A stretch of 48,196 nucleotides of DNA from positions 1 through 48,196 of the forward strand of contig DAIDHX010000053.1 in assembly GCA_027451885.1 (NCBI GenBank). Reading direction: 5' to 3'. The translations under genes and the position numbers were made by a program. Shown piece after piece: positions 7,001-42,802 of this stretch (position 1 is the stretch's first letter; each line of letters opens with the position of its first letter). A model generated the notes under the pieces. It was not told the origin of the DNA and searched no databases. It saw only the letters and a program-made list of their open reading frames with translations. This stretch comes from Planctomycetales bacterium. GTDB lineage: Bacteria > Planctomycetota > Planctomycetia > Isosphaerales > Isosphaeraceae.

Positions 7001-8035
7001 TCAATGATGGGACGTGACGAGGCCGGGCTTTCCCGACTCATCCCGAACAACTGGCGCAGGCGGGCTGGATTCGGCCGCGAGCTCGTGCGTGGAAGCTGAA
7101 CTGTGCGGGCGCTCGCGACGCAACCTGTTTTTGGGTTGGTGTTTCCAGCGGCGATGCAGCCACAGATACTGCGTGGGATCCTGCGTGATCAGTTTCTCGA
7201 GTGCGCTCGTGTAGCGCTGGGTGAGTGTACGCACGATCTCGGGATCGCCCTCGAGATCGAGGGGATCGATCACGTCGGTGCAGCGGATCTCGTACCGGAA
7301 TCCCGGGCCGATTCTGCGCGCGACACCCACGACCACCCGCGCCTGGTGTTCCACGGCCAGAAGCGCGATGGCCTTGTGGGTTGAGGCCGGCCGGCCGAAA
7401 AAGTCCACGTAAAGTCCGCGCTCGCCCGCATCCTGGTCGGCCAGGAAAGAGAGCACGCCTCGGCTGGTCAGCACTTCGTTGATCTGGTCGTAGCCGCCGG
7501 ACTTGGGAATGAGCTTCTGGCCGGTCCGTTCGCGGAACTGCCTGAGAAAGCGCTCGAGATAGGGGTTGTCGAGCGTGCGGGCCACTGAGTTTGTGGGGAA
7601 ACCGAAGAGCCCAAAGACATAGCCTGCGAGCTCCCAGTTGCCGTAGTGGCCCGTGAGCAGGATCATGGGCCTGTCGGCGGTCATGAGCTGGTCCATGATG
7701 GGCTCATGGCCGACCAGGACCACCTTGTCGCGCCAGTTGGTGAGATGGAGACTGCGGGGCGTGTGCAGAATCTCCATGAGCATGGTGCAGAAGTGGCGAT
7801 AGACAGCGCGGATGATGGCGTCGCGCTCGGCGTCGGTGTAGCGGTCGCCGAATGCGTGTTTGAGGTTTTCCAGGCCGACGTTGCGGTGCCGCCTGTCGAC
7901 CGTGTACGCGAGCCAGGCGAACCAGCCTGCGAGGGCGTATGCCTGCTTGATGGTGAGCGCCTGCGCGAGGGCGACGACGAGGCGAACGGCCACGTAGACG
8001 AGAAAATCAAACCGCCGCCGCCTGTGCCTGGGCAT
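7001..8035 (-). CDS. Lysophospholipid / Kdo2-lipid A-type acyltransferase (LpxL/HtrB family)
   Basis: The 344-residue product has the layout of the LpxL/HtrB family: a basic N-terminus, a hydrophobic stretch (about 10-45), NVGLENLKHAFGD, and the family's H-x4-E catalytic motif in TGHYGNWELAG near residue 130. It continues with FLADQDAGERGLYVDFFG, which matches the acyl-donor pocket region, and a C-terminal QYLWLHRRWK block typical of the family. Members transfer an acyl chain from acyl-ACP to a lipid A precursor at the inner face of the inner membrane. The last 40 residues are a Ser/Pro-rich tail not found in enterobacterial enzymes. I chose ATG at 8035 because GGAG lies 8 bases upstream; an in-frame GTG at 8044 sits too close to it. 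It is a single gene with its own upstream gap. Confidence 0.88.
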   Translation of the reverse strand: MPRHRRRRFDFLVYVAVRLVVALAQALTIKQAYALAGWFAWLAYTVDRRHRNVGLENLKHAFGDRYTDAERDAIIRAVYRHFCTMLMEILHTPRSLHLTNWRDKVVLVGHEPIMDQLMTADRPMILLTGHYGNWELAGYVFGLFGFPTNSVARTLDNPYLERFLRQFRERTGQKLIPKSGGYDQINEVLTSRGVLSFLADQDAGERGLYVDFFGRPASTHKAIALLAVEHQARVVVGVARRIGPGFRYEIRCTDVIDPLDLEGDPEIVRTLTQRYTSALEKLITQDPTQYLWLHRRWKHQPKNRLRRERPHSSASTHELAAESSPPAPVVRDESGKPGLVTSHH

Positions 8036-8158
8036 GAGCGTCACTCCGTTGACGTCCAGGAGACCGGTCGAGCCGGCCAGAATGCTCCAGGTGTTTTATA
8101 AGGATTCTGGAGCGAGAGTTCAAGTGAGTGGATGTGGTTACGGCCCGTGCCCCCCGTG

Positions 8159-9226
8159 TTACTGGTCGTGCAGGAGCGGGAGTGAGACCATTTGGCCTGA
8201 GGCGGCGGAGCGATAGATTGCGCGAATGATCTCGACAGCGCGGCGCCCTTCGCGGCCGTCGACGAGGGGTGGTCGCCCGGCGTCGATGGCGGCGAGAAAG
8301 TCGGCGATCTGGGCGCGATGGCCGGCGTGGGAGATGCCGCGTGGATCGCTCGAGCCTGAGTTGCCGCTGGACCGCGCGGCCAGGGCGGCCTGGATGTCGG
8401 CGTCCTCCGCGTGGGGATCGCGGAAGGACCAGAGGGTGATGTCGTCTTGCTCAACCCGCGCCGAGCCCTGGTCGCCGTGGATCTCGATGCGTTTTTCGAG
8501 CCCCGGATAGGCGGAGGTCGCGGCCTCAATCACGCCGAGCGCGCCGTTCTTGAAGCGGACGGCGGCGACGGCCGTATCCTCGACCTCGATCCGGTCGTGG
8601 GCCAGGGTGGCCGTGAGCGCCGTCACGGAGACAGCGTCCCCCATGAGCCAGAGCAGGAGATCGACGTTGTGGATCGCCTGGTTCATGAGAGCGCCGCCGC
8701 CATCGAGCGACCAGGTGCCGCGCCAGCCGCCGGAGTCGTAATACTGCTGGGTGCGCCACCATTTGACGTGGGTGTCTCCCAGCGTCAAACGGCCGAATCG
8801 CCCGGCGTCGATGGCGGCCTTGAGCCGCTGGTTCGCCGGCGCGAAGCGCGAGGGGAAGATGGTGCACAGGCCGACCCCCGCCCGGGCGCAGGCCTCAATG
8901 ATCGCGTCGCAGCGCGGCAGGGTGATCTCAAGCGGCTTTTCGACAATCACATGCTTGCCCGCCCGAGCGGCGGCCAGGGCAGGCTCGAGATGGGCGCCGC
9001 TGGGCGTGCAGATGGCGACGACGTCGACTTCCTTTGCCGCGAGCAAGGCATCCAGATTGTCAAAAATGGGGCAAGACCCGCCGGCAAGCGCAGCGATCTT
9101 CTGCCCATTCGCAGGGTTTCGGCTCCAGGCCGCGACGACCCGGGCGCCGGGGATCTCAAGGATGGCGCGGGTGTGATACTCGGCGATCATGCCGCAGCCG
9201 ATAATGCCCACGCCGTGCGGTTTCAT
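8159..9226 (-). CDS. Gfo/Idh/MocA-family NAD(P)-dependent oxidoreductase
   Basis: The 355-residue protein begins with a Rossmann fingerprint, VGIIGCGMIAEYH, followed by the typical VVAAWSRN strand. The AICTPSGAHLEPALAA segment and the VIVEKPLEI motif, with the conserved Lys of the EKP triad, are diagnostic of the Gfo/Idh/MocA family. The C-terminal half holds a GGALMNQAIHNVDLLLWLMG segment with the histidine and aspartate that usually contribute to the sugar-binding active site. Substrates in this family are commonly sugars or inositols, and the sequence does not tell which. I chose ATG at 9226 because GAGG lies 9 bases upstream; an in-frame ATG at 9253 lacks one. The gene lies just downstream of tyrS on the same strand with a gap of about 50 bases, so co-transcription is possible. 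Confidence 0.9.
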   Translation of the reverse strand: MKPHGVGIIGCGMIAEYHTRAILEIPGARVVAAWSRNPANGQKIAALAGGSCPIFDNLDALLAAKEVDVVAICTPSGAHLEPALAAARAGKHVIVEKPLEITLPRCDAIIEACARAGVGLCTIFPSRFAPANQRLKAAIDAGRFGRLTLGDTHVKWWRTQQYYDSGGWRGTWSLDGGGALMNQAIHNVDLLLWLMGDAVSVTALTATLAHDRIEVEDTAVAAVRFKNGALGVIEAATSAYPGLEKRIEIHGDQGSARVEQDDITLWSFRDPHAEDADIQAALAARSSGNSGSSDPRGISHAGHRAQIADFLAAIDAGRPPLVDGREGRRAVEIIRAIYRSAASGQMVSLPLLHDQ

Positions 9227-9277
9227 GGCAACCTCAAGTGTAGATGACAACATGTGTAGAAGAGGTTTCGCGGCGGC

Positions 9278-10498
9278 TCAGGGGGTGAGCCGCACGCGTG
9301 CAATTCTCCGCTTGCCCGCGCGGACGATGAGGCCGTCGTGGATTGTAATGGGCGCTTTGGGGTCGGTGACGACCTCGCGGTCGGGTCCGATGTTGAACCC
9401 CCCCTGCTCGATCAGGCGCCGCGCGCTTGAGGCGCTGGGTTCGAGCCCAAGCTCCTTGAGCAGGAGAAACGCCGGCAGGCTCTGGGCGGCGTCGAGCCTG
9501 GCGGCGGAGACCGCGACCTCGGGCACGACGTCAGGGTCCTCGCCGGCTGCGCGCTTGCGGAACGCGCGCGCCGCGGTCTCGGCCGCCTCCGCGCCGTGAT
9601 ACTGTGCGACGATCGCGCGGCCGAGCGCTTCCTTGGCGTCGCGCGGGTTGAGCGCGGGGTCGAGCAGGCGATCGACCTCGGGGATCGGAATCTCGGTCAG
9701 CAGGGTGAAATACTGCCGCATCGGCTCGTCGGGAATGCTCATGATCTTGCCGAACATGGCATCCGCCGCGTCGGCGACCCCGATGTAATTACCCAGGCTC
9801 TTGCCCATTCTGCGCGTGCCGTCGGTGCCCACCAGAATGGGCATCGTCATCGCCACCTGCGGCGGCTGGCCCTGCGACTCCTGCAGGTCGCGCGCCACCA
9901 GCAGGCTGAAGAGCTGCTCGGTGCCGCCAAGCTCCACGTCCGCCTTGATCTCAACCGAGTCCCAGCCCTGCATGAGCGGGTAGAGGCACTCGTGGAGATA
10001 GACCGGCTTCTCGGCCGCGATCCGCTGCGCAAAATCCTCCCGGGCTGAGATTTGCCCCAGCGTCATCTTGCGCGTGAGCTCGAGCACATCGAGAAACGAA
10101 AAGCGTGCGAACCAATCGCCGTTGCGATGGACCTCGGCTCGGTCCAGATCGATCAGGCGGCCGACCTGTTCGAGATAGTCGCGGGCATTGGCCTCGACCT
10201 GGTCCTTCGTGAGCCGGGCGCGGGTTTCGTCGCGGCCCGAGGGGTCGCCCACGAGCGCGGTGTAGTTGCCGATGATGATGATGGCCTTGTGCCCCAGATC
10301 CTGGAATTGCCGCAGCTTGCGCAGCGGCACGGTGTGGCCCAGGTGGACGTCGATGCCGGTCGGGTCGATGCCGTACTTCACCCGCAGCGGCGTGCCGGAC
10401 TTGACCGAGCGCTCGAGCTTCTGGCGGAACTCCGCTTCGGGAGTGATCCTGTCGACGCCGCGTGAAAGGTATGCCAGTTGTGATTCGACGTCGCGCAT
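9278..10498 (-). CDS. tyrS: Tyrosyl-tRNA synthetase
   Basis: This class I aminoacyl-tRNA synthetase attaches tyrosine to tRNA-Tyr. The product has KYGIDPTGIDVHLGH, which includes the HIGH-type HLGH motif, then FQDLGHKAIIIIGNYTALVGDPSGR, the tyrosine-binding region around LYPLMQGWDSVEIKADVELGG, and a KMSKS-type loop as RRMGKSLGN. The C-terminal 70 residues, with ARRLIEQGGFNI, form an S4 RNA-binding domain. I prefer ATG at 10498, giving 406 residues, because GGGAG lies about 12 bases upstream and the family's usual N-terminus begins there. An in-frame ATG at 10528 would add ten residues but has no visible ribosome binding site. It is intact and of normal length. Confidence 0.95.
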   Translation of the reverse strand: MRDVESQLAYLSRGVDRITPEAEFRQKLERSVKSGTPLRVKYGIDPTGIDVHLGHTVPLRKLRQFQDLGHKAIIIIGNYTALVGDPSGRDETRARLTKDQVEANARDYLEQVGRLIDLDRAEVHRNGDWFARFSFLDVLELTRKMTLGQISAREDFAQRIAAEKPVYLHECLYPLMQGWDSVEIKADVELGGTEQLFSLLVARDLQESQGQPPQVAMTMPILVGTDGTRRMGKSLGNYIGVADAADAMFGKIMSIPDEPMRQYFTLLTEIPIPEVDRLLDPALNPRDAKEALGRAIVAQYHGAEAAETAARAFRKRAAGEDPDVVPEVAVSAARLDAAQSLPAFLLLKELGLEPSASSARRLIEQGGFNIGPDREVVTDPKAPITIHDGLIVRAGKRRIARVRLTP

Positions 10499-10684
10499 CG
10501 ACCGGTCGTGCTCCCAGGGATTCCGCATTTTTTCGGTAGCTGGCCAGGCTTGCCAATCTTAAGGATCGGGCGCGGGCGCGGGCAAGGTGACTGAAAGCCC
10601 ACCGAGCGAGTACGATGCAGGTGGATTGGGAAGGTTCGGCCAGGGGTACGCGCCCCATCACGCGATGAGATCTCGACGAACTTG

Positions 10685-11776
10685 ATGGAACACCTGCTTC
10701 GCACCCTGAGGCTCACCCTGCTCCTGGGATTGTTCTCGCTGGTGATTTCCGCATGGCTGAGAATCGCCACCCGGCTCCTGCGCGGCGATCGTGTTTTGCC
10801 AGACCGCCTGATCGCCACCCCGAGCCGACCTCCCTGGGGATCGGGGACTGTGCTGCTTTCGCTGCTGCTGTTTCTTGGGCTCAGCGTCGTGGTCATGGGG
10901 GTGTATCGCTCGGTCAAGCGTGAGTTTGTTCCGGCGCAGGCCGGCGCACCCGCGCTCGCTCCCGCCGCACAGCCGGCCGAGTCGCCCGCGCCCGCGAACC
11001 CGCTCACCGCGCTCGAGCAGGTCGGCCTGACCGCCGTCGTGAATGTGCTGCTCATCCCCCTGCTGCCGCTACTTGCCTGGTTCACGGCGGGGGCGAGACT
11101 GCGCGATTTTGGGCTCTCACGCGAGCGCCTGGGCGGCCAGCTTGGGCTTGGCTTTGGCGCAGGGTTTTTCGTGGTGCCGATCATCTATCTCGTGCAGGCC
11201 CTTGCCGGCCTCATCTGGAGCCCCAACCAGCACGAGCTTTCGGTCATGCTCGAGCGGCAATTCTCGCCAGCCGCCGCCGTGCTGGGCGCGGTCACGGCCG
11301 TGATTCTCGCCCCCATCCTTGAGGAAATGCTCTTCCGCTCGATCCTTCAGCGCTGGCTGATCGCCCTGTTTGATGATCTCATCCAGGCGATCCAGGGCGC
11401 GCCAACCACGGCCTCCGAGACCGATCCCACGCCCACCCGGGCCGCCGGATACCTTGCCCCGACTCAAATTGAACCCGCGGAAGACGCCACGCGCGAGGCC
11501 GGGAACGGCCTTGCTCCACCCGCGACTGCACCAGCCGCCGCCATGCTCGGCATCGCGCTGACCTCGTTCCTCTTCGGGATCGTCCACGCCCCGCAATGGC
11601 CCGCGCCGGTGCCGCTCTTCCTGTTCGCCGCCGCAATCGGCCTCGTCTACCAAAGAACCGGTTCCCTCATCGCGGCTATTTGCATGCATGCAACACTGAA
11701 TGGCATATCCACAGGCGCCATGCTGCTCATGGTGCTTTTTGGAACGCCCGCCGGCGGTGGCGGTCCCAGGGGGTGA
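10685..11776 (+). CDS. CPBP-family intramembrane metalloprotease
   Basis: The 363-residue protein is strongly hydrophobic, with membrane segments near residues 5-25, 55-80, 115-140, 160-185, 195-225, 285-315 and 325-355. The CPBP (CAAX protease and bacteriocin-processing) motifs are all present: EEMLFRSILQRW (EExxxR), FLFGIVHAPQW (FxxxH) and MHATLNGIS (HxxxN). These residues form the intramembrane metal-binding active site of the family typified by Rce1. Unusually, about 60 residues of Pro/Ala/Thr-rich sequence separate motif 1 from motif 2, a likely cytoplasmic loop. The ATG at 10685 follows a TTG codon. The gene diverges from tyrS, with a roughly 185-base shared promoter region. Its substrate is unknown. 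Confidence 0.88.
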   Translation: MEHLLRTLRLTLLLGLFSLVISAWLRIATRLLRGDRVLPDRLIATPSRPPWGSGTVLLSLLLFLGLSVVVMGVYRSVKREFVPAQAGAPALAPAAQPAESPAPANPLTALEQVGLTAVVNVLLIPLLPLLAWFTAGARLRDFGLSRERLGGQLGLGFGAGFFVVPIIYLVQALAGLIWSPNQHELSVMLERQFSPAAAVLGAVTAVILAPILEEMLFRSILQRWLIALFDDLIQAIQGAPTTASETDPTPTRAAGYLAPTQIEPAEDATREAGNGLAPPATAPAAAMLGIALTSFLFGIVHAPQWPAPVPLFLFAAAIGLVYQRTGSLIAAICMHATLNGISTGAMLLMVLFGTPAGGGGPRG

Positions 11777-12721
11777 AAAACGACTAAACTTGAGTGGCCG
11801 ACCAGAATCGTCCCACTCATTTCGCCTGGCCTCACAGCGCGGGCGTCCTGGCTAGAAAAGCGGCAAAGAGTGGGATTTTTCCTGGACGGCTCCGGGTTCG
11901 ACTGTTAGATTCTGGGGAGTCTGCTCGGTCATTGTCGGCGTAGTGCGATTCGCCGATCCACAGCCTTTGGGGCCAGGGCAGCCGGTCAAGGTGGAATACC
12001 CTGCCGGTTCGCAAGTTGCGTCGTGCAGGTTCCGATATAAAGGGGACCTGGTCGCCCAGGGGCTGGTCGAAGTCAGGAGTCATGCGTTGCCAGGAGCACA
12101 GAATCGAGTTCGGGTGGGACCCCGGCAGAATCCCCCGCCTGAGCGCGAGCCGTCCCTGGCGCCATCGCTTCTGCCCCAATTCAGGGGTGAAGCTCTGCTG
12201 TGACCGACGCCAGGATGGTGCTGCCGTCGAGAGCTTGTGTTCTCTTCGGCACAAAGGGAGTGGTGGAGCCACGGTCCCGCTGTTTGGGTCCTGGTTCTCC
12301 TCGTGGGGGTTACTGTCCGATGAGCGAGCTGAAGTCCAAGAAAAACGCACCGATGCATGATGGTTTTGAGTGGGCGGGCGCGGTGGCGCGGGTTCGGCGC
12401 GGGGTGCGTTCGAACCGGGCGGGCCGCCGGGCGGCACTGCTTGGCATGCTGACCGCTGCATACGTCAATTCCAGCCGTGGCAATCGCACGAGCGATCGAT
12501 CCACGAGCGAGCGTTGATCTTCCGTCTGAGCGAAGTCCCTGGCCGGCCCTGTCCGGACCTGGTGAAATTCGAACAAGCGACCGAGCCGCACCCTGCTGCG
12601 CAACCGCGCGGGGACGCGGCTCGGTTTTTTTGTTTGAAGCTTTGACTTGACTCAATCGCTCTTAGGGCACAGCCTGAAGCAGGACCAATCGCATTCCTCG
12701 ATTTTGCGAGAACCTCGAGAA
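11777..12721. other. Long gene-poor stretch ending in a strong plus-strand terminator
   Basis: About 945 bases lie between the CPBP protease gene and the best start of glgX. Several short open frames exist, but none shows convincing codon bias, a good ribosome binding site and a recognisable family. One plus-strand frame from ATG 12080 has scattered Cys/His (MRCQEH, RFCPNSGVKLCC) that could be a decayed zinc ribbon; another begins at ATG 12320 (MSELKSKKNAPMHDG). A Rho-independent terminator at 12580-12631 implies that something on the plus strand is transcribed here. No tmRNA, SRP RNA or riboswitch signature was recognised. Confidence 0.4.
12580..12631 (+). terminator. Rho-independent terminator upstream of glgX
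   Basis: A 10-base perfect stem (ACCGAGCCGC at 12580-12589 with GCGGCTCGGT at 12616-12625) is followed at once by a T-run through 12631. The loop is 26 bases and can form a smaller inner helix. It ends transcription coming from the left, yet no clear gene lies directly upstream. Confidence 0.75.
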
Positions 12722-14833
12722 ATGTCCGAGCCGACAAGCTTGCTCGCCCCCTCGATCCAGGAGGAATACCATTATCGCGACCGCATGTTGCTCGTGACCC
12801 GGGGCACGCCGGTGCCGGCGGGTGCGACCGCAACGCCGACCGGCACGAATTTCGTGCTCATTTGCCGCCACGGCACCGCGGTCTGGCTCGTGCTCTCGGA
12901 GCCCTGCGACGGCGAGATCCGCGCCGAGATCCCCCTCGACCCGATGCGCAACCGCACCGGCGACCACTGGCATATTCGCGTCGACGGCTTGCCGGAAGAA
13001 TTCTGCTACGGCTACAAGGTCGACGGACCGCAAGGCAACGGCCACCGCTACGACCGCTCCATCATTCTGCACGATCCCTATACGCGCGCACTGTCCTGCG
13101 GCAGGCCGTGGGGCCTCTCCGGCGACCTCCCGCGCAGGAGTCTCATCACCGAGGTTCTCCTCGACCGCCCACGCGAGCTCAATCCCCGCACGCCCCTCGA
13201 GGACACGATCCTCTACGAGCTGCACGTGCGCAGCTTCACGATCCATCCCACCTCGGGCGCGCGGCATCCGGGTACCTACGCCGGACTCGTTGACAAGCTC
13301 GATGACATCAACCGCCTGGGCGTGACCGCGATCGAATTGCTCCCGGTGGACGAATTCGACGAAAATGATTGCACATTTGTTAATCCTCTCACGGGCGAGC
13401 GGCACCGCAATCTCTGGGGCTACAATCCGATCGCGTTCTGCGCGCCCAAGGCGGCGTATTCATCCAATCCCGAGCGGTCCGGCCCCTGGAACGAATTCTG
13501 CACGATGGTCGACCGCTTCCATCAGGCGGGGCTCGAGGTGATTCTCGACGTCGTTTTCAACCACACGGCGGAAGGGGGCGAGGGAGGGCCGACGTATAAC
13601 TTCCGCGGGGTGGATAACACGCTTTTCTACATGCTCGACGATCATGGCCGCTACCTCAATTTCAGCGGCTGCGGCAACACGTTTTCGAGCGACCATCCCG
13701 TGGTGCGCAACTATCTGCTCGACTGTTTACGGAACTGGGTGGCCGAAGGGGGCGTGGACGGGTTCCGGTTCGACCTGGCGTCGGTGCTGGGGCGCGACCG
13801 CCATGGCGATGTGCTGCTCGAGCCCCCCGTCATCAATCGGATCAGCGAGGATTCGCTGCTGCGTGACGCCAAGCTGATCGCCGAGCCCTGGGACGCCGCG
13901 GGGCTCTACCAGGTGGGTACGTTCCCAGGCCAGACTCGCTGGTCCGACTGGAATGGCCGCTACCGCGATGATGTCAGGCGCTTCTGGCGCGGGGAACGCG
14001 GATTTGTCTCAGCGCTCGCGACCCGGCTCTGCGGTTCGGACGACCTCTATCTCGAACGCGGGCCGCTGCACTCGATCAACTTCATCACCTGCCACGACGG
14101 CTTCACGCTGGCCGACCTTGTCTCCTACAACCACAAGCACAACGAGGCCAATGGCGAAGGCAATCGCGACGGCGCGGATGCCAACTGGAGCTGGAACTGT
14201 GGCGCGGAGGGGCCGACCGACGACCCCGTTGTTCTCGCCCTCCGCAGGCGCCAGGTGCGCAATCTCATGGCCACCTTGCTGGTCTCACAGGGCGTGCCCA
14301 TGATCCTCGCCGGCGATGAATTCCTCCGCACCCAGAAAGGCAACAACAACGCCTGGTGCCAGGATAACCCCGTGGGCTGGGTCGACTGGTCGCTGCGCGA
14401 GAAAAACGCTGACTTTTACCGCTTCACGCGCATGATGATCGCGTTTCGCAAGGCCCATCCTGCGCTCAGAAGGCGCACGTTTTTCGGCCACAACGGCGCA
14501 CTCAGCCCGGAGATCCTCTGGCACGGCGTCGAGCCGTCGCACCCCGATTTTTCGCACGAAAGCCACTCGATCGCGTTCGCGCTCGACGGCCGCAGGATCG
14601 ATCGCCCCGGCGTCATCGACCGCGATATCTACGTCGCCATGAACGCCTACTGGCGGCCGCTGGGCTTTCGCATTCCCTCGTCTCCCACGGGCCGGCCGTG
14701 GCGACGCGTCGTCGATACCTCGCTTCCCTCACCCGATGACATCCTCGAGGAAGACCACGGCCCGCGCATCCCGATCGGCCAGATCTACCGCGTCGAGGCC
14801 CAGTCCCTGATCATCCTGGTGAGCGAGCCCTGA
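12722..14833 (+). CDS. glgX: Glycogen debranching enzyme, isoamylase type (GH13)
   Basis: The 703-residue product has an N-terminal CBM48-like domain (about 25-160), then the GH13 barrel with [24 protein letters not shown] (nucleophile D351), [12 protein letters not shown] (acid/base E388) and [17 protein letters not shown] (D459). The combination of [16 protein letters not shown] and [11 protein letters not shown] is specific for GlgX/TreX-type debranching enzymes, which hydrolyse alpha-1,6 branches of glycogen or phosphorylase limit dextrin in the cytoplasm. Length is normal for the family. I chose ATG at 12722 (MSEPTSLL), since an upstream in-frame TTG at 12647 lies close behind the terminator and would add an unmatched 25 residues. 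No other glycogen gene is adjacent. Confidence 0.93.
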
Positions 14834-35319: not shown

Positions 35320-35804
35320 TCTTTGAAGCGGGATCGACCATTCTCGTCCGCCACGCGGAGCCTCGCGACCAGGCGGCCGTCGTGGAGTTCAACCGTCTCC
35401 TGGCATTCGAGACTGAGTCCAAGACGCTCGACCCGCGCGTGCTTGTGCTCGGCGTGATCCAGGCGCTCTCTGACCCGGACCGTTGCCGCTACTGGGTCGC
35501 CGAGCTCGAGCCCCAGGGGGTGATCGTGGGCCAGGCCGCGGTCACCCGCGAATGGAGCGACTGGCGCAACGGCTGGATCTGGTGGCTCCAGAGCGTCTTC
35601 GTGGCCAAGCCCGCACGCGGCCGCGGCGTCTTCAAACGACTCTTCCAGCAGATCCGCACCGAGGCCGAAAACGACCCCTCCGCCATCGGGCTGCGACTCT
35701 ACGTCGAACAGCAAAACCACAGGGCCCAGCAGGTTTATCAGAATCTCGGCATGCAGCCCGGCGGTTACCACGTCTACGAGGATCTGTTTCGGATCAAGCA
35801 CTAG
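35316..35804 (+). CDS. GNAT-family N-acetyltransferase
   Basis: The 162-residue product starts GTG at 35316, overlapping the rhomboid stop (GTGA). It has the GNAT fold: a first strand ILVRHAEPRDQAAVVEFNRL, the central IWWLQSVFVAKPARGRGVFK with the acetyl-CoA pyrophosphate-binding RGRGV loop (motif A), and LRLYVEQQNHRAQQVYQNLG followed by MQPGGYHVYEDLF (motif B). The acceptor substrate cannot be read from the sequence; relatives include amino-acid and protein N-acetyltransferases. The overlap with the rhomboid gene suggests coordinated expression, not necessarily a shared function. Confidence 0.88.
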   Translation: MIFEAGSTILVRHAEPRDQAAVVEFNRLLAFETESKTLDPRVLVLGVIQALSDPDRCRYWVAELEPQGVIVGQAAVTREWSDWRNGWIWWLQSVFVAKPARGRGVFKRLFQQIRTEAENDPSAIGLRLYVEQQNHRAQQVYQNLGMQPGGYHVYEDLFRIKH

Positions 35805-35834
35805 CGGATGCTCTTGGCCGCGAGCGCGGTTGCC

Positions 35835-35856
35835 CCGGATCTCCTGCCTGATCCGG
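35835..35856. terminator. Possible hairpin between convergent genes
   Basis: A perfect 7-base inverted repeat (CCGGATC at 35835-35841, GATCCGG at 35850-35856) with an 8-base loop lies between the convergent GNAT and regulatory-repeat genes. There is no T-run on either strand, so it could be only an RNA 3' end stabiliser. Confidence 0.3.
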
Positions 35857-35864
35857 CCTGTGCG

Positions 35865-37577
35865 TCATTGTGCCCCGCTCGCCTCCGTCAGTTTGACGTT
35901 CCACTCCGCCCTGCGCTCGTCTGGCAGATGCACGCGCGAGACAACCGGCCGGTAGCCAGCCGCACGGACGCGGAGGACGATTTCGCGGCGGCCCCGCCAG
36001 TCAACCGTGCCATGGTAAAAACCCGGCAGCCTGCCCCGCGCATACGCCAGCTCCCACCGGGACTGGCCGGTGGCGGGATCGACCGAGAGGATCTCCGCAA
36101 CGGGTTTCTCGATCAAGGTGTTCGTCCTGGCATCGCGCACCGAACCCCAGAAGGTGAAGGTCTCCCTCAGAGAGATCGGAAGTGTTTTATCCTCCCCGGG
36201 CGTGAGCAAACGCCCCTGGTCGTAACTGTCTGAAGCAACGTAGACCCATGCCTTGATGGGATCTCCCGGCGCCTGGGTCCATTTGAAGTGACCTTCGTCG
36301 TCGGTTGCAACCGCGGCGCCGAGGGCGACGTAGCCGCGAAATGAGCCAAACGCCACGCGCGCGCCCGGCACCGGCCTGCCCTGGTCGTCGACCACGCGCC
36401 CATGCAGAACGCTCGCCCGTCTGAGCTGGAAGCGCACCGCTCGATCATCGGTCGACGCCGCGATGACCTCAAGCCCGGGCGCGAAGTCGCGCGCAACCAC
36501 CTGGACCACCGCCGCGGCCCTGCGCACGTTCGCAAAGGCAAAACGCCCGTGGTCATCCGAGCGCGTGCGCGCAACGACCTGATTCTTGATGTTCGGCAGG
36601 CTCGCGTCGAAGAGCGTGATCTCCGCCCCAGCGATCGGGCGCCCGGCCTCGTCGTGAACCGCGCCCGAGACCTTGACTCCACGGCTCAGGGCCACCGTCT
36701 CGTGGAACGTCCGCAACAGCTCGATCGGGCGATCCCCCGGCGAAAAGCCGCTGGCCTTCGCCCGATAGGAATAGGTTCCAGGGGGGGTATCGTCGACGAG
36801 CGTGGGATGCGTGACCATGAGTCTCGCGTATTCGGTCCCGCGAAAGCCGCGGCAGCGCCACTGGCCACGCGAGTCGGTCACGGTATCGAGCCAGCTTGCC
36901 GCCTCATTGTCTGCCTTGAGCTCGCCCAAGACCGCGTAGATCCACACGCGGGCGCCCGCCACGGCCAGGCCACGATCGTCGACCACGATTCCGCCGAACG
37001 TCTCCTCACTGGGGTTGAGCGAGACCTTCAAGGTACGCGGAACCTTCCGCCCGACGGGGCAGTTGTCAGGCGCGAATGCGAACGTCTGCTGGATGTAACC
37101 GTCGGTCCAGATCTGGAGCCAGAGGTCGCGCGTGCTCGGATCCCGGGCGGGCACGAGCCGCGCGTGTCCATTCTGGTCGGTCAGGATCACGTCCTCGAGT
37201 CGGTAAGGCGAGCGCCTGATGCGGGCGTTTGCCAGGGGAAGTCCGGTGTCGCCGGCCACGACCTCGATCGCGAGCGAGTCAGGCGCGGGTTCCACCGCCG
37301 CGACTTTCGCCACGCCAGCCGTGGGCCGGGGCGGGACGCCGGGTCCGGCGGCCTGCGAGCCCGCGACCTGGATCATCCCCAGCGTGGCCGCGACGGCGAG
37401 GATCGCGCCCGAGCACAGGACGCGCACCACGCGCGGGGAGCGGCAACGGGGAAGGCCGGCGGCAGACCCGATCCGTTCGAGCCGTTGCTCAAGCTGGGCC
37501 GAGTTGTCCCGGAAAAACGCAATCGCAAGCGCTGGCCGCGACCGCCGATCCTGAGCAAAATGTAAGCGCATGATCAT
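35865..37577 (-). CDS. Partial duplicate of the M56 sensor: membrane-anchored carboxypeptidase-regulatory-like repeat protein
   Basis: The 570-residue product begins MIMRLHFAQDRRSRPALAIA and keeps only the last part of the M56 peptidase module (QLEQRLERIGSAAGLPRCRS), a membrane span (GAILAVAATLGMIQVA) and then about five carboxypeptidase-regulatory-like (CarboxypepD_reg / Ig-like) repeats. The repeats carry tags such as GGIVVDDRGLAVAGARVWIY, SGAVHDEAGRPIAGAEITL and HGRVVDDQGRPVPGARVAF. The HExxH motif is absent. Its start overlaps the upstream M56 gene stop by four bases (ATGA), which implies translational coupling. Ninety-four bases around the membrane span are identical to the upstream gene, so it arose by partial tandem duplication or was homogenised by gene conversion. 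It probably acts as an accessory periplasmic binding partner. Confidence 0.82.
   Translation of the reverse strand: MIMRLHFAQDRRSRPALAIAFFRDNSAQLEQRLERIGSAAGLPRCRSPRVVRVLCSGAILAVAATLGMIQVAGSQAAGPGVPPRPTAGVAKVAAVEPAPDSLAIEVVAGDTGLPLANARIRRSPYRLEDVILTDQNGHARLVPARDPSTRDLWLQIWTDGYIQQTFAFAPDNCPVGRKVPRTLKVSLNPSEETFGGIVVDDRGLAVAGARVWIYAVLGELKADNEAASWLDTVTDSRGQWRCRGFRGTEYARLMVTHPTLVDDTPPGTYSYRAKASGFSPGDRPIELLRTFHETVALSRGVKVSGAVHDEAGRPIAGAEITLFDASLPNIKNQVVARTRSDDHGRFAFANVRRAAAVVQVVARDFAPGLEVIAASTDDRAVRFQLRRASVLHGRVVDDQGRPVPGARVAFGSFRGYVALGAAVATDDEGHFKWTQAPGDPIKAWVYVASDSYDQGRLLTPGEDKTLPISLRETFTFWGSVRDARTNTLIEKPVAEILSVDPATGQSRWELAYARGRLPGFYHGTVDWRGRREIVLRVRAAGYRPVVSRVHLPDERRAEWNVKLTEASGAQ
37369..37462 (-). 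repeat. 94-bp direct repeat, copy 1
   Basis: This stretch is identical base for base to 40125-40218, in the same orientation and reading frame. It encodes the Arg/Cys-rich PRCRSPRVVRVLCSG segment and the membrane span in the partial duplicate. Flanking sequence diverges quickly on both sides. Confidence 0.9.
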
Positions 37578-40500
37578 AATCCTGCGCGTGTTGGAGAAGG
37601 TTGCTTTCTTCTGGGCTCAGGCCTGAGCAACCCCAGGTCGACAGGATCGCGCTCGTGGCCGGAATCCCCCTCAGGAACCGTGAATTTCAGGGAAAGATGC
37701 GCAACACGGTCCGGCGTGGGCGGCCCACCCACGAAGCGATCCGCGCTATAGATCAGGCGAAGCTCGTAGTCTCCAGGGGGCACATCGGCCACACGCAGCA
37801 CGCCGTCGCGATCGAGCCCGTACTGCCGGAAAGTGTAAGACTTCTGGCGGTAGGCGTGACCCTCCGGAGAAGCCCACCATTTGTGCGCCCATTGACTCGC
37901 GGCCTCATCCCATCGTTGGGCCATGGACTCGGGATAGGGGATGAGGGGTTGAACGCTTTCAATCTGGAAGTTCGAATTCTTGATGTAGTCGCCCCGCGGA
38001 TCGAACCCGTCCGGCAGGGCGATGTGTGCCACGATCGGTCTGCCGTTGCCTCCCACGACCACCTTGCTGGTCTCGCCAGGCACGACTGTGACAAGGGTGC
38101 CACTTGTGCGCCAGTGGGGCCTGTCGAGCCTCGTGCCGAACGCACGCGCCACGCGCACATCGCCTGGCATCACGTGCTCGAACGCGAATCGGCCCTCGTT
38201 GTCGGTGGTCGTCTCTCTCGAGTCGTCGAGGTACGGAGTGTCGAGGAATCGGAGCGCGTCGGTCTGGTATTGAATTGTCGCGTGTCCGACCACTCCAGCG
38301 CCCGCGCGTGCCACACCCTCGATCCGCCCCCAGGGTGCGGTGGCGACGACGGGTTTCGCTTCGAACGCCTTGCGCGATGCTCTCCCGAAAAAGTCGGGGT
38401 GAGCAACCACGACGGAGAAATAACGCCCTCGCGGGTCAGGATCACGCGTGAGCTTGAAGCGCCCCTCGGCGTCGGTCGTCGCCACGGCCTGCTCCGGCGT
38501 GGCGTTGATCCTGCCGTTTGCGATCACCAGCATCGGGTGGTCCGCGGCTGTTCCCATGGGAATCGGATAGGCGATCGCGACCTGGGCGTTCGCGAGCGGC
38601 TTGCCGTCCGGGCGCAGGGCCGTGCCTTCCAACACGGCTTCGGTTGGCGTGTCGTGTCTGATCATCGAAACGTTGTAGGCGAGCTGGTCATGATTCGCGT
38701 CCAGGATTGGCGACTCGTACACGTCATATCCCATGGCTCGGATCTGGATGCGAAACCTGGGGTGCTGGTCCGGGTCGATGCGGGCCTCGAGCCGTGCGTT
38801 CGCCACTGTGACGCGCTCTGCGAATCGCCACCGCCAGCCTCCCTGGCCGTCGGGCTCGCCGAGGCTCGCCTCGGCCTGCTCGATCGGCGCCTTCGTCCTG
38901 GCGTCGATCACCTTGCCTGCGAGCGTGATCTTACGTGCGAGCTTGAAGTTCGCTGGAATTCCCGCGCGAACGGTTTCGCCGAACTTGGTCTCATATCCAG
39001 CCGCTCCCACGGCGAGAACGACCGGCTCGCTGGGGGCATCGTCCCAGCGAAATCGGCCGTCGCGGCCCGTCCAGAATCGCAAGCTCGGCCACGGGTTGCC
39101 TTTCCAGGTGCGAACGACGACCACTGCCCCTTCGATCGGTCTGCCCCGAGGATCCACGACCTGGCCGGAGAGAACCGAAGGCGGAGCCAGCGTGATCTGT
39201 AGGTCCGACGTACTCCTTTCCGCGGTCATGAGCAATTGCGAGGGCGCATGCCCCTTCGCGGTTGCCAGAATCACCACACGCGTGGGCCGCACGTGCGGAA
39301 GCTCGTATCGCCCCTCGGCATCGGTGGTTGTGCGGTCGAGATCCTCATCGGAAACCGGGCCGAGCTGGGCAGCCTCGAACCAGCACACCAACGCCCCCGC
39401 GATCGGCTTGCCCTGGGGATCGACCACGCGACCCGAAAGCCTGACTCCCCGCGCCATCACCTGCACGTCAGTGAAGTCGCGGAGCGGTTTCATGGCCGCG
39501 GCATGCACCCCATCCCCATGGGGGCGATCATGCCATCCATACTCGCTCAGGTAATCAGGATGAAAGAGGCTCAGATTCGCGTAGACCATGTTACGGAAAC
39601 AACGCAGCCGCCATTCACCCTTTGCGTCTGTGCGCGTTCCGACCTCATAGGCGAGTTCCTCCCTGGCCTGTCGCCCGTTCGGTCCCAGCTTTCCAGAGAC
39701 TTCCACGCGTGCGCCCACAATGGGATCGCCCTGCTCGTCGACAACCTTGCCACCCAGCGTCTCGGTCGCGGGGAAAAGCGTGATGGTCTTCTCGCGAACA
39801 GCCTCGTCCTTGCCGTTCCTGGTGACGAAGAGGACGTGCTGCTGCTGAACGAAACCATCCGCCCAGACGTCGATCGAGACCCTGTTCGGAAAGCGCCTGC
39901 TGCGGAGATCGACCCGAATCTTGCCGTCGCGGTCACCCGCGACGAGCGGTCGGTGATCATCGATGGACAGCCGTGCCTGGGGATTTGCGATCGGCTTGCC
40001 AGTGTCGCCGGCCACAACCTCGACCACGATTTCGGCAGGCGTATCGGCCCTGGATGTCTCGTTTTCGGTTCCCGACGATGCTCGAGCCGGCTCCTGAGTT
40101 TCACCGGCCGATGAGCGTGCGACGTGGATCATCCCCAGCGTGGCCGCGACGGCGAGGATCGCGCCCGAGCACAGGACGCGCACCACGCGCGGGGAGCGGC
40201 AACGGGGAAGGCCGGCGGTGGAGCGAATCCTTTCAAGCCTCTGTTTGAGCTGGGTTGCCCGTGCCATGGCCATGCCGATCGCGGGCTCGCGTTTGCGAAC
40301 GAGGCCGCCAGCGACCTCGAGCAGGCAGTCGCGGTAGACGGCCGAACCGAGCGTGTGAACGCAAAGGGCGTCGCAGGCCAGCTCACGCGCGGCGGATGTG
40401 ACGGGGCCGAGCATCCAGACCAGGGGCTGCGGCCAGTAGAGCGCCTGGACCAGCTTGCGCACCAGGTTCCAGGCGTAGTCGGCCCGGCTGATGTGCGCGA

Positions 40501-41212
40501 GCTCGTGCAAGAGCACGGCGTCGATGGCGGAGTCCGAGGCCTGAATGAGGAGCGGCTCGGGGAGAACGATCGCGGGCCGGAACCAGCCCATGACGATCGG
40601 CACGGAAACATCTGTTGAAGCGAGCAGCGAGACGGGTTGTTCGATCGCAAGCTGGCCGCGGAAGCGTGAGAGCGCCTGGGCCCAGCGCGGGTTGTTAACG
40701 GTCGTGGCCGAGCGCCTGAGGCGTTCGACGGTCGCGATGGCGACGGCCAGTCGCAGGAGCAAAAGCGCGAGCCCCGCCAGGTAGCAGGCGACAAAAACGG
40801 CGGCGAGCGAGATTGGCCTGGAGGCCGTGGAGTCTGCGCGTGCGGTCACGGCCGGCGGTGCGGCAGGTACCGCGGCGGGAACGTCTGGGATCACGCGTGG
40901 TCGAGGCAAGAGACCCGCGCTCCGCGGACTGATCGGCGCCTGAGGTGCGATGGCTGGAGCGCTCGCGGCCGGCGCAGCGCTCGGGGCGGGAATCCAGACG
41001 GTGAGCCTGGGTGCGCTCCAGAGCGAAAGCGGCAAGAGCAAAAGCCCGATGAGGCAGGCATTCCAGACCACGGATTGAACGACTGCCCGTTTGCGGCCGA
41101 GCGCGAAATGCGCCCCAAGCGCGACCGCCAGAAACGCGCCGCCACGGCAGAACAGCTCAGCCGCCAACGTCGCCCAGGGGCCGGACCAGACAGGAGCGGA
41201 GAGCGCAAACAT
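37574..41212 (-). CDS. BlaR1-like M56 metallopeptidase with carboxypeptidase-regulatory-like repeats instead of a penicillin sensor
   Basis: The 1212-residue protein starts two bases after the blaI stop. Its first 365 residues are an M56 peptidase: membrane spans near 10-35, 40-65 and 165-195, the zinc site LLHELAHISRADYAWNLV (HExxH near 233-237) with SAARELACDALCVHTLGS (third ligand), and a last span GAILAVAATLGMIHVA. In BlaR1 and MecR1 the outer part is a penicillin-binding domain; here it is about 840 residues of carboxypeptidase-regulatory/Ig-like repeats (tags such as GGKVVDEQGDPIVGARVEV, SGRVVDPQGKPIAGALVCW, SGQVVDPRGRPIEGAVVVV). It likely senses an extracellular or envelope signal and cleaves or inactivates the BlaI-type repressor. 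The ligand is unknown. The ending overlaps the start of the partial duplicate. Confidence 0.88.
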   Translation of the reverse strand: MFALSAPVWSGPWATLAAELFCRGGAFLAVALGAHFALGRKRAVVQSVVWNACLIGLLLLPLSLWSAPRLTVWIPAPSAAPAASAPAIAPQAPISPRSAGLLPRPRVIPDVPAAVPAAPPAVTARADSTASRPISLAAVFVACYLAGLALLLLRLAVAIATVERLRRSATTVNNPRWAQALSRFRGQLAIEQPVSLLASTDVSVPIVMGWFRPAIVLPEPLLIQASDSAIDAVLLHELAHISRADYAWNLVRKLVQALYWPQPLVWMLGPVTSAARELACDALCVHTLGSAVYRDCLLEVAGGLVRKREPAIGMAMARATQLKQRLERIRSTAGLPRCRSPRVVRVLCSGAILAVAATLGMIHVARSSAGETQEPARASSGTENETSRADTPAEIVVEVVAGDTGKPIANPQARLSIDDHRPLVAGDRDGKIRVDLRSRRFPNRVSIDVWADGFVQQQHVLFVTRNGKDEAVREKTITLFPATETLGGKVVDEQGDPIVGARVEVSGKLGPNGRQAREELAYEVGTRTDAKGEWRLRCFRNMVYANLSLFHPDYLSEYGWHDRPHGDGVHAAAMKPLRDFTDVQVMARGVRLSGRVVDPQGKPIAGALVCWFEAAQLGPVSDEDLDRTTTDAEGRYELPHVRPTRVVILATAKGHAPSQLLMTAERSTSDLQITLAPPSVLSGQVVDPRGRPIEGAVVVVRTWKGNPWPSLRFWTGRDGRFRWDDAPSEPVVLAVGAAGYETKFGETVRAGIPANFKLARKITLAGKVIDARTKAPIEQAEASLGEPDGQGGWRWRFAERVTVANARLEARIDPDQHPRFRIQIRAMGYDVYESPILDANHDQLAYNVSMIRHDTPTEAVLEGTALRPDGKPLANAQVAIAYPIPMGTAADHPMLVIANGRINATPEQAVATTDAEGRFKLTRDPDPRGRYFSVVVAHPDFFGRASRKAFEAKPVVATAPWGRIEGVARAGAGVVGHATIQYQTDALRFLDTPYLDDSRETTTDNEGRFAFEHVMPGDVRVARAFGTRLDRPHWRTSGTLVTVVPGETSKVVVGGNGRPIVAHIALPDGFDPRGDYIKNSNFQIESVQPLIPYPESMAQRWDEAASQWAHKWWASPEGHAYRQKSYTFRQYGLDRDGVLRVADVPPGDYELRLIYSADRFVGGPPTPDRVAHLSLKFTVPEGDSGHERDPVDLGLLRPEPRRKQPSPTRAGL
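40125..40218 (-). repeat. 94-bp direct repeat, copy 2
   Basis: This is the copy inside the full-length M56 protease gene, identical to 37369-37462 and 2756 bases away. It covers the end of the peptidase module and the last membrane span. Confidence 0.9.
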
Positions 41213-41214
41213 GT

Positions 41215-41634
41215 TCAATCTCCAGCCCGTTTGGGCGATCGCCGAGTTCGTTTGGGAGGATTCGTCGCCGCGTCGAGCGCGCGCTGGCGGAGCAGCTCGA
41301 GCTCGGCGGGAGTGATCTTTTCGTCCTCGATCAGGCGGACGACCAGGTCGTGCGCGGAGCCGCCGAAGAACCGCGAAACCAGGTTCCAAAGCACGCTTCG
41401 CTGCACCTTCTCACGCGGCACCGCCGCCGTGTAGACAAACGCCTTGCCGCGACTCTCATGGCGGAGAAAACCCTTCGATTCAAGCGTGCGCAAGAGCGTG
41501 CGAATCGTGGAATCGTGCAGCTCCGCCGAGACCGCGCCCCGCACCTGCTCCGCCGTGGCCGCGCCGAGCGCCCAGACCGCGTCCATAACCTCGGCCTCGC
41601 GCCTCGTCAATACGTCCGCCGGCTTCCGCCCCAT
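41215..41634 (-). CDS. BlaI/MecI-family transcriptional repressor
   Basis: The 139-residue protein has a winged helix in its first 80 residues, LTRREAEVMDAVWALGAATA then EQVRGAVSAELHDSTIRTLL and RTLESKGFLRHESRGKAFVY, typical of BlaI/MecI/CopY repressors. The C-terminal dimerisation part includes SRFFGGSAHDLVVRLIED. In this family the cognate M56 peptidase cleaves the repressor and induces the operon. It is followed by the M56 gene after two bases. Two palindromic CTGTTA-type sites lie directly upstream of its start and are the likely operators, so the operon should be autoregulated. ATG at 41634 has AGGAG about six bases upstream, lying against the proximal operator. Confidence 0.93.
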   Translation of the reverse strand: MGRKPADVLTRREAEVMDAVWALGAATAEQVRGAVSAELHDSTIRTLLRTLESKGFLRHESRGKAFVYTAAVPREKVQRSVLWNLVSRFFGGSAHDLVVRLIEDEKITPAELELLRQRALDAATNPPKRTRRSPKRAGD

Positions 41635-41644
41635 CGGGAATCTC

Positions 41645-41662
41645 CTGTTATTTCTCTAACAG
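41645..41662. promoter_or_regulatory. Proximal BlaI-type operator
   Basis: A perfect inverted repeat, CTGTTA-N6-TAACAG, lies 11 bases upstream of the blaI start and overlaps its ribosome binding site. Repressor bound here would block transcription or initiation of the blaI-M56 operon. The half-site recurs at 41705-41722. Confidence 0.65.
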
Positions 41663-41704
41663 ATAGCGACGTTACTCCCCCGCCCCGCGCCCGTCAAGCA
41701 CCAA

Positions 41705-41722
41705 CTGTGGTTTTTCTAACAG
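41705..41722. promoter_or_regulatory. Distal BlaI-type operator
   Basis: This CTGTGG-N6-TAACAG site keeps four of six symmetric positions and shares the TTTCTC/TTTTTC-TAACAGAT half with the proximal site. The two sites are exactly 60 bases apart, between blaI and trpD. Confidence 0.5.
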
Positions 41723-41776
41723 ATCATGGCGGCGTCTGGGCGCCTGGAGCGATCATCTGATCACGCGGGCTGGTCG

Positions 41777-42802
41777 TTACGCGGGCTGGATGGTGCGCCA
41801 GCGTTCGAGGAGCTGGCGTACCGCGCCTGAGTCGAGCGTGCGGCTGGCAAGTTCGGCGGCGGATTTCAAGTCAGGGGCAAGGCCGGCGGTCCAGAGTGCG
41901 GCGGCGGCGTTGGCGACCAGGTAATCGCGGGCTGGGTCACGCGCGCCCTGGAAGACTGCCAGCAAACGCGCTGCGCTTTCCTGAGCGTTGTTTACGATGA
42001 GTGGTTCGATCGGGGCGGGAGCGAGCCCGAAGTCGGCGGGGGTGAAGCTCAACGTGCGGATCGCGCCCTGTTCCACGAGCCAGGCGCGGGTGCTTGTGGC
42101 GAGCGTGACCTCGTCGAGTCCATCCTCGCCGTGGACGACGAGGGCGCGTTCGAGATGTTCGAGGCGGGCGAGGACGCGGGCCATGAGCTCGGCCTGGCTT
42201 TCGAGCGAGCATCCGATGAGCTGGAATCGTGGCGAGGCGGGGTTGCAGAGCGGGCCGACGAGGTTAAAGAGGGTGCGAAACGGCAGTGCGCGGCGAACCG
42301 GGGCGATGGCGCCTAAGCCGGGGTGGAATCGCGGGGCGTGGAGGTATGCGATGCCGACGTGTTCGAGCGTGCCGAGCGGGTCGGCCGCGGCCGGGTCGGG
42401 TGCGACTCCGAGTGCTTCGAGTACATCGGAGCTGCCGGTGCGGCTCGAGGCAGCGCGGTTTCCGTGCTTGACGATCCGCGCGCCCGCCGCGGCGGCGAGG
42501 AGGGCTGCGCCCGTGGAGATGTTCAGTGTCCCGGACCGATCGCCCCCCACCCCGCAGGTGTCGATGAGGGGTGAAAACCGCGAGGCATCGAGCCGGCTCA
42601 TCCGCGACCGCACGGCATGCACGGCCCCCTCGAGCTCGTCGGCCGTGATGCCCTTCACGGCCAGCGCGGTGAGGAAGCTCGAGGTCTCGATCGCGCTTGC
42701 CTGCTGGTCGAGCAAGGCGAGCACAGCGGCCTCGGCCGTGCGCGGATCGAGCGCCTGACGGGCGGCCAGTTGTTCAAGCGCCCCAGCAATCACGCGCGTC
42801 AT
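41777..42802 (-). CDS. trpD: Anthranilate phosphoribosyltransferase
   Basis: This enzyme joins anthranilate and PRPP in tryptophan synthesis. The 341-residue product has an N-terminal helical domain (ARQALDPRTAEAAVLALLDQ), the PRPP/diphosphate loop DTCGVGGDRSGTLNISTGAA, the KHGNRAASSRTGSSDVLEAL segment that binds anthranilate and Mg, and APRFHPGLGAIAPVRRALPF with the conserved RALPFRT block followed by LVGPLCNP. It is of normal length with all motifs intact. Its start codon overlaps the stop of the upstream HtrA-like gene by four bases (ATGA), an unusual partnership; no other trp gene is nearby. It is the last gene of that pair. Confidence 0.95.
   Translation of the reverse strand: MTRVIAGALEQLAARQALDPRTAEAAVLALLDQQASAIETSSFLTALAVKGITADELEGAVHAVRSRMSRLDASRFSPLIDTCGVGGDRSGTLNISTGAALLAAAAGARIVKHGNRAASSRTGSSDVLEALGVAPDPAAADPLGTLEHVGIAYLHAPRFHPGLGAIAPVRRALPFRTLFNLVGPLCNPASPRFQLIGCSLESQAELMARVLARLEHLERALVVHGEDGLDEVTLATSTRAWLVEQGAIRTLSFTPADFGLAPAPIEPLIVNNAQESAARLLAVFQGARDPARDYLVANAAAALWTAGLAPDLKSAAELASRTLDSGAVRQLLERWRTIQPA

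Follow-up and report, generated by a model that had tools for sequence, protein, structure and literature searches.

How two neighboring genes can share one stretch of 94 identical bases while the rest of their sequence has diverged is the question raised by contig DAIDHX010000053.1 of a Planctomycetales bacterium (assembly GCA_027451885.1, family Isosphaeraceae), whose positions 1 to 48,196 are the stretch analyzed here and are called the window. On its minus strand lies an operon in the order blaI, gene A, and gene B: a BlaI-type repressor gene, a gene for a BlaR1-like M56 membrane protease, and a paralog of A that has no protease part. An earlier note, made from the sequence alone, had described the repeat as perfect and B as a partial duplicate of A, and had ascribed the identity either to recent gene conversion or to strong constraint on the juxtamembrane segment. 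The sequence comparisons reported below support a conversion tract in an operon with an N-terminally truncated second M56 gene, and similar tracts are found in three other tandem pairs. The explanation as a whole, which combines the conversion tract, the truncated gene B, and a docking of B on A, is the one toward which we lean.

A 94-base identity between two diverged M56 genes

The two copies of the tract, offset by 2756 bases, agree base for base and are followed by a mismatch directly beyond each end; the repeat is thus as perfect as the earlier note had it and cannot be extended by a single base. No other exact direct repeat in the window reaches 30 bases, the two copies account for all 65 directly repeated 30-mers, and inverted repeats of 30-mers are absent from the window. 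The match continues in weaker form over 150 bases (37349-37498 and 40105-40254, 88% identity), and a search of the whole genome (6.18 Mb, 316 contigs) with this 150-base query returned both copies and one 34-base place with 88% identity. Although the offset of 2756 is not divisible by 3, recombination between the copies is predicted to leave an in-frame product of 863 amino acids that retains HELAH, because A and B occupy different frames; the in-frame deletion foreseen in the earlier note is therefore right in principle. The other genome of the same genus, G002, gave no match of the A/B subfamily at an E value of 1e-20, and a wider pattern scan of genome contigs with B returned 27 hits without any relative among them.

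Synonymous divergence inside and outside the repeat, a comparison that the earlier note had proposed, speaks for conversion. Within the tract the silent codons of A and B agree in 29 of 29 cases, compared with 66 of 158 outside it (42%), and the edges are abrupt, with diverged homologous sequence flanking both sides. Over the family codon alignment, sites at which A and B carry the same residue have an identical codon in 51%. The silent run of 30 codons (the 29 of the tract and one beyond) was reached in 0 of 5000 shuffles, in the family alignment as well as in a separate pairwise alignment, and the longest exact run of 94 bases stands against maxima of 24 (family alignment) and 23 (pairwise alignment) in 2000 codon shuffles. 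With 0 of 29 codons differing, the rule of three gives an upper limit of about 10% of codons for the silent changes accumulated after the most recent exchange. Ranked by longest exact run, the 171 family pairs are led by a species pair with 95% amino acid identity (210 bases), followed by A and B (94 bases), the tandem pair of G001 (73 bases), and a species pair with 78% identity (59 bases), and all remaining pairs stay at or below 43; the amino acid identities of the tandem pairs with runs of 94 and 73 are 34% and 52%.

If the juxtamembrane segment, or a nucleic acid signal overlapping it, were under purifying selection, the identity could arise with no exchange at all, and the corresponding elements of BlaR1 are functional (PMC9834060). 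However, selection at the protein level leaves the 29 silent matches unexplained, and the protein segment is itself variable: of its 31 residues, 6 to 14 match A in the 16 further family members whose sequence spans it. In addition, an Rfam scan of 35600-41900 gave no family at the gathering score. The strong constraint proposed in the earlier note is thus not supported, gene conversion is preferred because the segment varies in the family, and we regard selection without exchange as scarcely credible.

Nor does the divergence of the two genes suit a recent partial tandem duplication of A, which their adjacency, common strand, and common domain order might suggest. A and B are 34% identical over the aligned residues and 31% identical in the sensor part, their silent identity outside the tract is at the level given above, and B ends like the complete short-form gene of G018, all of which makes a recent duplicate very unlikely. 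The term "partial duplicate" is misleading; B looks like an old paralog from which the peptidase part is gone. Judged by these comparisons, the 94-base identity very probably reflects recent gene conversion over a short tract, with two old M56 paralogs in tandem as the partners.

Similar tracts in other tandem M56 pairs

Of the 45 genomes in the window's family, 18, picked mostly for their many M56 genes, were searched with PF05569, together with the window's genus. Eight tandem pairs (same-strand neighbors within about 4 kb; contig ends may hide more) were chosen by eye and compared in the same manner as the window pair, for which the comparison is limited to the remaining end of the M56 module of B; the divergent pair G063:C7, which has no exact repeat of 30 bases, was excluded from the test. 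In four of the nine pairs the longest exact run lies beyond all 2000 codon shuffles, namely, in the window (94 bases), G001:C21 (L042; 73 bases), G063:C12 (L084; 68 bases), and G034:C24 (L085; 107 bases). All four runs are situated within the M56-plus-membrane module, and three of them are at or beside the last membrane helix: in the window and in G063:C12 the run covers this helix and the linker preceding it, and in G034 it covers a cytosolic stretch that reaches the start of the helix. The G001 run is located between HExxH and the second zinc motif and extends into the latter. In the silent-run test, the observed run was reached in 0 (window), 2 (G001), and 4 (G034) of 5000 shuffles.

Homolog controls are confined to the window's family of genes and to G034. 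The sensor of the first G034 gene shares 70% of its amino acids with its G025 counterpart versus 45% with its tandem neighbor, whereas its M56 part is a little closer to the tandem partner (74% amino acid and 83% silent identity) than to the G025 counterpart (71% and 77%); by these identities, the modules of the G034 gene have different histories. For the G063:C12 gene, no homolog was found at an E value of 1e-60 in the five other genomes of its genus that were searched.

These additional pairs also bear on an assembly artefact, in which the two copies would truly differ at a few sites and one consensus would have been written twice. The window genome is a draft of 316 contigs, so that a consensus error in the repeat is possible; a length of 94 bases comes close to the word lengths common in assembly; and the genomes of the three other pairs with runs of this kind are fragmented as well (490, 110, and 310 contigs). 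Nevertheless, each copy has flanks that suit the gene it lies in, and the same module carries runs of 68 to 107 bases in three further genomes, so we consider an artefact very unlikely.

M56 genes are numerous in the window's family, with up to 22 matches per genome at an E value of 1e-12 across the 45 genomes; at the same threshold, matches were found in 1 of 14 control genomes. Some of these genes have unusual forms. In G061 (L087), a 606-codon frame (7600-9417, minus strand) lies directly downstream of an M56 gene (9572-13936, minus strand); it repeats the C-terminal 469 residues of that gene with 57% identity and has an N-terminal hydrophobic span of its own. In L110 (G006:C482:5076-7691), a 356-codon M56 frame ends soon after the RRRV helix and continues in an overlapping frame with a membrane span and repeats, perhaps owing to a frameshift or a sequencing error. 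The M56 proteins of two relatives, L043 and L046, carry a thioredoxin-like C-terminal part (LDFWATWCGPC), recognized by eye and not by a family search; therefore, the outer part may exceed a sensor role.

Gene B as a probable N-terminally truncated paralog

The overlap of the A stop with the B start, the start of B within the M56 module, and the loss of HExxH from B, all pointed out in the earlier note, were borne out. B gives no PF05569 match at an E value of 0.01 and matches PF13620 in two stretches (106.7 bits). Its lone hydrophobic peak spans residues 53 to 71, the helix before its tract reads QLEQRLERI, and its similarity to the M56 family runs from residue 11, aligned to residue 306 of A, to its end. 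Two full-length tandem copies with open frames of 1218 and 1266 codons are present in G001, a genome of the same genus in which no blaI was found on the stretch examined, which stops at the contig end, and G018 has a short-form relative, complete with an open frame of 857, whose end position B shares; therefore, B can be read as an N-truncated M56 gene. It looks like an old tandem M56 paralog minus approximately 300 N-terminal codons. Probably, then, the ancestor of B was a full M56 gene from which a deletion removed the N-terminal peptidase part, the first homologous residue now lying ten codons past the start that overlaps the stop of A. B opens with the codons ATG ATC, much as the G001 genes probably do (MID), and the old start might have been kept; two codons are weak evidence for this.

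The family tree does not place B, which is a long row outside every starred group. In the sensor tree, A pairs with G001_1 with a support of only 80/82, and in the M56 tree the two G001 copies pair with each other (96/99).

The chief alternative is that B is a functionless remnant decaying since the deletion of its protease part, the tract then being a neutral exchange between neighbors. Consistent with this, the catalytic module is lost, the end branch of B (2.2) is the longest among the 18 rows of the sensor tree, as expected of a decaying gene, and no second B-type protein was encountered in the loci opened, where no search aimed at it was made. Speaking mildly against decay, B retains 570 open codons with a third-position GC of 0.74 to 0.85 along its length, like its coding neighbors, and its GC by codon position (0.69/0.52/0.81) is near that of blaI, A, and two upstream frames; its start, moreover, overlaps the stop of A. 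The open frame by itself is weak evidence because the GC content of the window is 64%. All told, a decaying remnant is a serious possibility, though we would not bet on it.

A structure model of B built from two sequences is poor, with a mean predicted local distance difference test (pLDDT) value of 59.5 and values below 50 for residues 1 to 98. The best Foldseek matches of the model are mostly bacterial pilin and adhesin domains with about 10% identity, and TM-scores by query length do not exceed 0.23 among the 50 matches listed; the modeled result says only that B contains strings of beta domains.

The operon and its operator-like sites

The features of the operon are collected in Table 1. 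The domain order of A consists of the M56 module followed by CarboxypepD_reg-type repeats, which form a putative outer sensor. In the frame 37574-41389, A matches PF05569 with 105.9 bits (cut-off, 31 bits) and PF13620 with 147.2 bits in three stretches, and four hydrophobic peaks are present. As in BlaR1, the peptidase domain contains both HExxH and the second zinc motif E-x-x-x-D, whose E277 and D281 are invariant in seven aligned rows, and a BlaI-type repressor gene is adjacent. A nevertheless falls below the BlaR1 equivalog level (NF000326, 93.1 bits versus a 400-bit cut-off), and Pfam shows no penicillin-binding or transpeptidase sensor family in it at an E value of 0.01, the CarboxypepD_reg repeats standing there instead. 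Searched alone against Protein Data Bank (PDB) sequences, A gave no match at an E value of 0.001. A scan for promoters and terminators gave nothing promoter-like, and its 4 terminator-like sites compare with 4.2 in shuffles.

Table 1. Features of the blaI-A-B operon, in window positions
Feature	Position	Strand	Remarks
Gene B, protease-less paralog, 570 aa	35865..37577	-	One hydrophobic peak; CarboxypepD_reg-type repeats
94-base tract, copy in B	37369..37462	-	About residues 39-70: linker and sole membrane span of B
4-base overlap ATGA, A stop/B start	37574..37577	-	Second in-frame ATG from 37571
Gene A, M56 (BlaR1-like) membrane protease, 1212 aa	37574..41212	-	Likely ATG 41212; PF05569, PF13620
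94-base tract, copy in A	40125..40218	-	Linker after RLERI helix and last membrane span
HELAH zinc motif of A, residues 236-240	40493..40507	-	Sequence
blaI, BlaI/MecI-type repressor gene, 139 aa	41215..41634	-	PF03965 Penicillinase_R, 102.8 bits, E 1.9e-29
Proximal operator-like dyad CTGTTAGAGAAATAACAG	41645..41662	-	Perfect half-sites CTGTTA/TAACAG
Distal operator-like dyad CTGTTAGAAAAACCACAG	41705..41722	-	Upstream of blaI; second dyad 60 bases away

Two operator-like dyads, each 18 bases long, lie 60 bases apart upstream of blaI. They were first seen by eye, and the pattern YYGTTA-N6-TAACRR was scored in the 150 bases before blaI wherever a locus had both a match to blaI and DNA upstream of it (L083, which has no blaI match, and L016, which is cut there, were left out). 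The two best places are 59 to 63 bases apart in every one of the 12 loci scored, which are the window and 11 relatives; shuffled sequence reached the score of the weaker site in 13 of 500 cases for L043, 5 of 500 for L047, 3 of 500 for L045, and 0 of 500 for the other nine. This scoring is after the fact, because the pattern came from those same loci. Throughout the window genome, the strict pattern YYGTTANNNNNNTAACRR matches at the proximal site alone, and a window-like pattern with up to two mismatches matches at both dyads and nowhere else; in the backwards control, the strict form gave 2 forward and 2 reverse matches and the window-like form gave 0. An automated repeat search reported no inverted repeat upstream of blaI. 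In the simplest interpretation, BlaI would regulate its own operon and little else, with the proviso that differently shaped sites would escape such patterns.

A possible role for gene B

In PMC9834060, BlaR1 is described as a domain-swapped dimer whose subunits exchange alpha9 and the terminal membrane helix, alpha10; alpha9 follows the autocleavage loop, Arg294' of alpha9' reaches the active site of the partner, and autocleavage between residues 283 and 284 yields a C-terminal product, 284-585. The NCBIfam model blaR1_generic aligns residues from about 135 to 353 of A with model positions 101 to 323, which extends beyond the 283/284 cleavage position. If the model follows the Staphylococcus aureus numbering, B would start a few residues before the cleavage site and retain the outer domain together with helices alpha9 and alpha10, and the arginine that is invariant in QRLERI would lie near Arg294.

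Such a correspondence suggests the following mechanism. The blaI-A-B genes would form a self-contained operon repressed by BlaI, in which A would be the protease that cuts BlaI once its outer domain is engaged. B would be the equivalent of the C-terminal autocleavage product of BlaR1 and would dock on A through the swap of alpha9 and alpha10, either bringing a second, different sensor to the protease of A or blocking that protease, and conversion would keep the linker and membrane helix of B matched to those of A. That B docks on A by a BlaR1-like swap, as a protease-less second sensor or a blocker in a BlaI-repressed operon, is a tentative proposal by analogy. More speculative still, and rather improbable in our own estimate, is the wider picture in which B is a genetically encoded, permanently "pre-cleaved" BlaR1-like C-terminal half that plugs into A by way of the swapped alpha9-alpha10 element, so that one protease may serve two different sensors, and in which conversion in the protease and swap element may keep tandem paralogs half-exchangeable even as their sensors diverge, for combinatorial sensing in these bacteria with their many M56 genes.

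Besides the long branch of B, its solitary occurrence in the opened loci, and the draft state of the genome, several results count against this explanation. A profile of the segment searched against PDB chains did not find BlaR1, and the profile of the whole module aligned to BlaR1 no further than the E-x-x-x-D motif, which leaves the coordinates of one hidden Markov model as the basis of the alpha9/alpha10 mapping. The partial copy in G061 comprises a C-terminal module only, without the alpha9 part. Among the tandem pairs, the longest run of G025:C1 (42 bases, 1 of 2000 shuffles) lies in the sensor, that of G063:C8 is 35 bases (23 of 2000), and no clear tract is present in G029:C1 (92 of 2000), G063:C1 (816 of 2000), or G006:C57 (1410 of 2000). 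The silent-run counts are 17 of 5000 shuffles for G025:C1, 37 for G063:C12, and 996 for G063:C8, with 2797, 3112, and 3349 for the G063:C1, G006, and G029 pairs. The codon shuffles ignore the clustering of conserved residues, by which all these significances are overstated. Finally, silent runs of at least 20 codons occur in 15 of the 171 family pairs and are less discriminating than exact runs. Besides the species pair with 95% identity, the 14 such rows listed comprise the pairs of the window and of G001 and 11 others, which fall in columns 27 to 153; the A start is at column 159, before which the stop-to-stop frames of relatives run into blaI, and these 11 runs are not relevant to the coding part because their columns precede that start.

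Comparison with known systems

The literature search, which took in titles and starts of abstracts and left most subscription papers outside its scope, returned none on tandem M56 conversion, on a protease-less BlaR1-like partner, or on the operator. The domain-swapped dimer of BlaR1 was described for an antibiotic sensor; if the explanation given above is true, tandem M56 genes with a homogenized protease/membrane module and free sensors would suggest that the swap can act as an exchangeable plug, and the blaI operon with A and B would be a simple two-gene system for testing this idea. A caution for genome reading also arises, in that the M56-module tree and the sensor tree of such genes can disagree.

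The closest known system is the BlaR1-BlaI pair of the bla operon in S. aureus. Both systems have a BlaI-type repressor and an M56 zinc membrane protease with an outer C-terminal domain, and in both the repressor would bind at the operator of its own operon, for which the dyads described here are candidate sites. Unlike BlaR1, however, the outer domain here is a row of CarboxypepD_reg-type repeats in which no penicillin-binding domain was found, neither a beta-lactamase nor a penicillin-binding protein is among the three genes of the operon, and the protease-less paralog B is extra. Compared with the BlaR1 fragment 284-585, as described in PMC9834060, B seems to keep part of the cleavage loop, the alpha9-like RLERI helix, the last span, and an outer domain; the fragment is made by proteolysis in BlaR1, whereas here it would have its own gene and a different outer domain.

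Truncated genes of this kind are also known from some SCCmec types, where truncated mecR1 genes keep the protease part and have lost the sensor end. These are likewise truncated M56 sensor-protease genes in a repressor operon, and B is the reverse, having lost the protease. Gene conversion or partial concerted evolution between tandem paralogs leaves a short, silently identical tract inside diverged copies; different here, in four pairs, is that the tract falls in a shared protease/membrane module while the sensors diverge.

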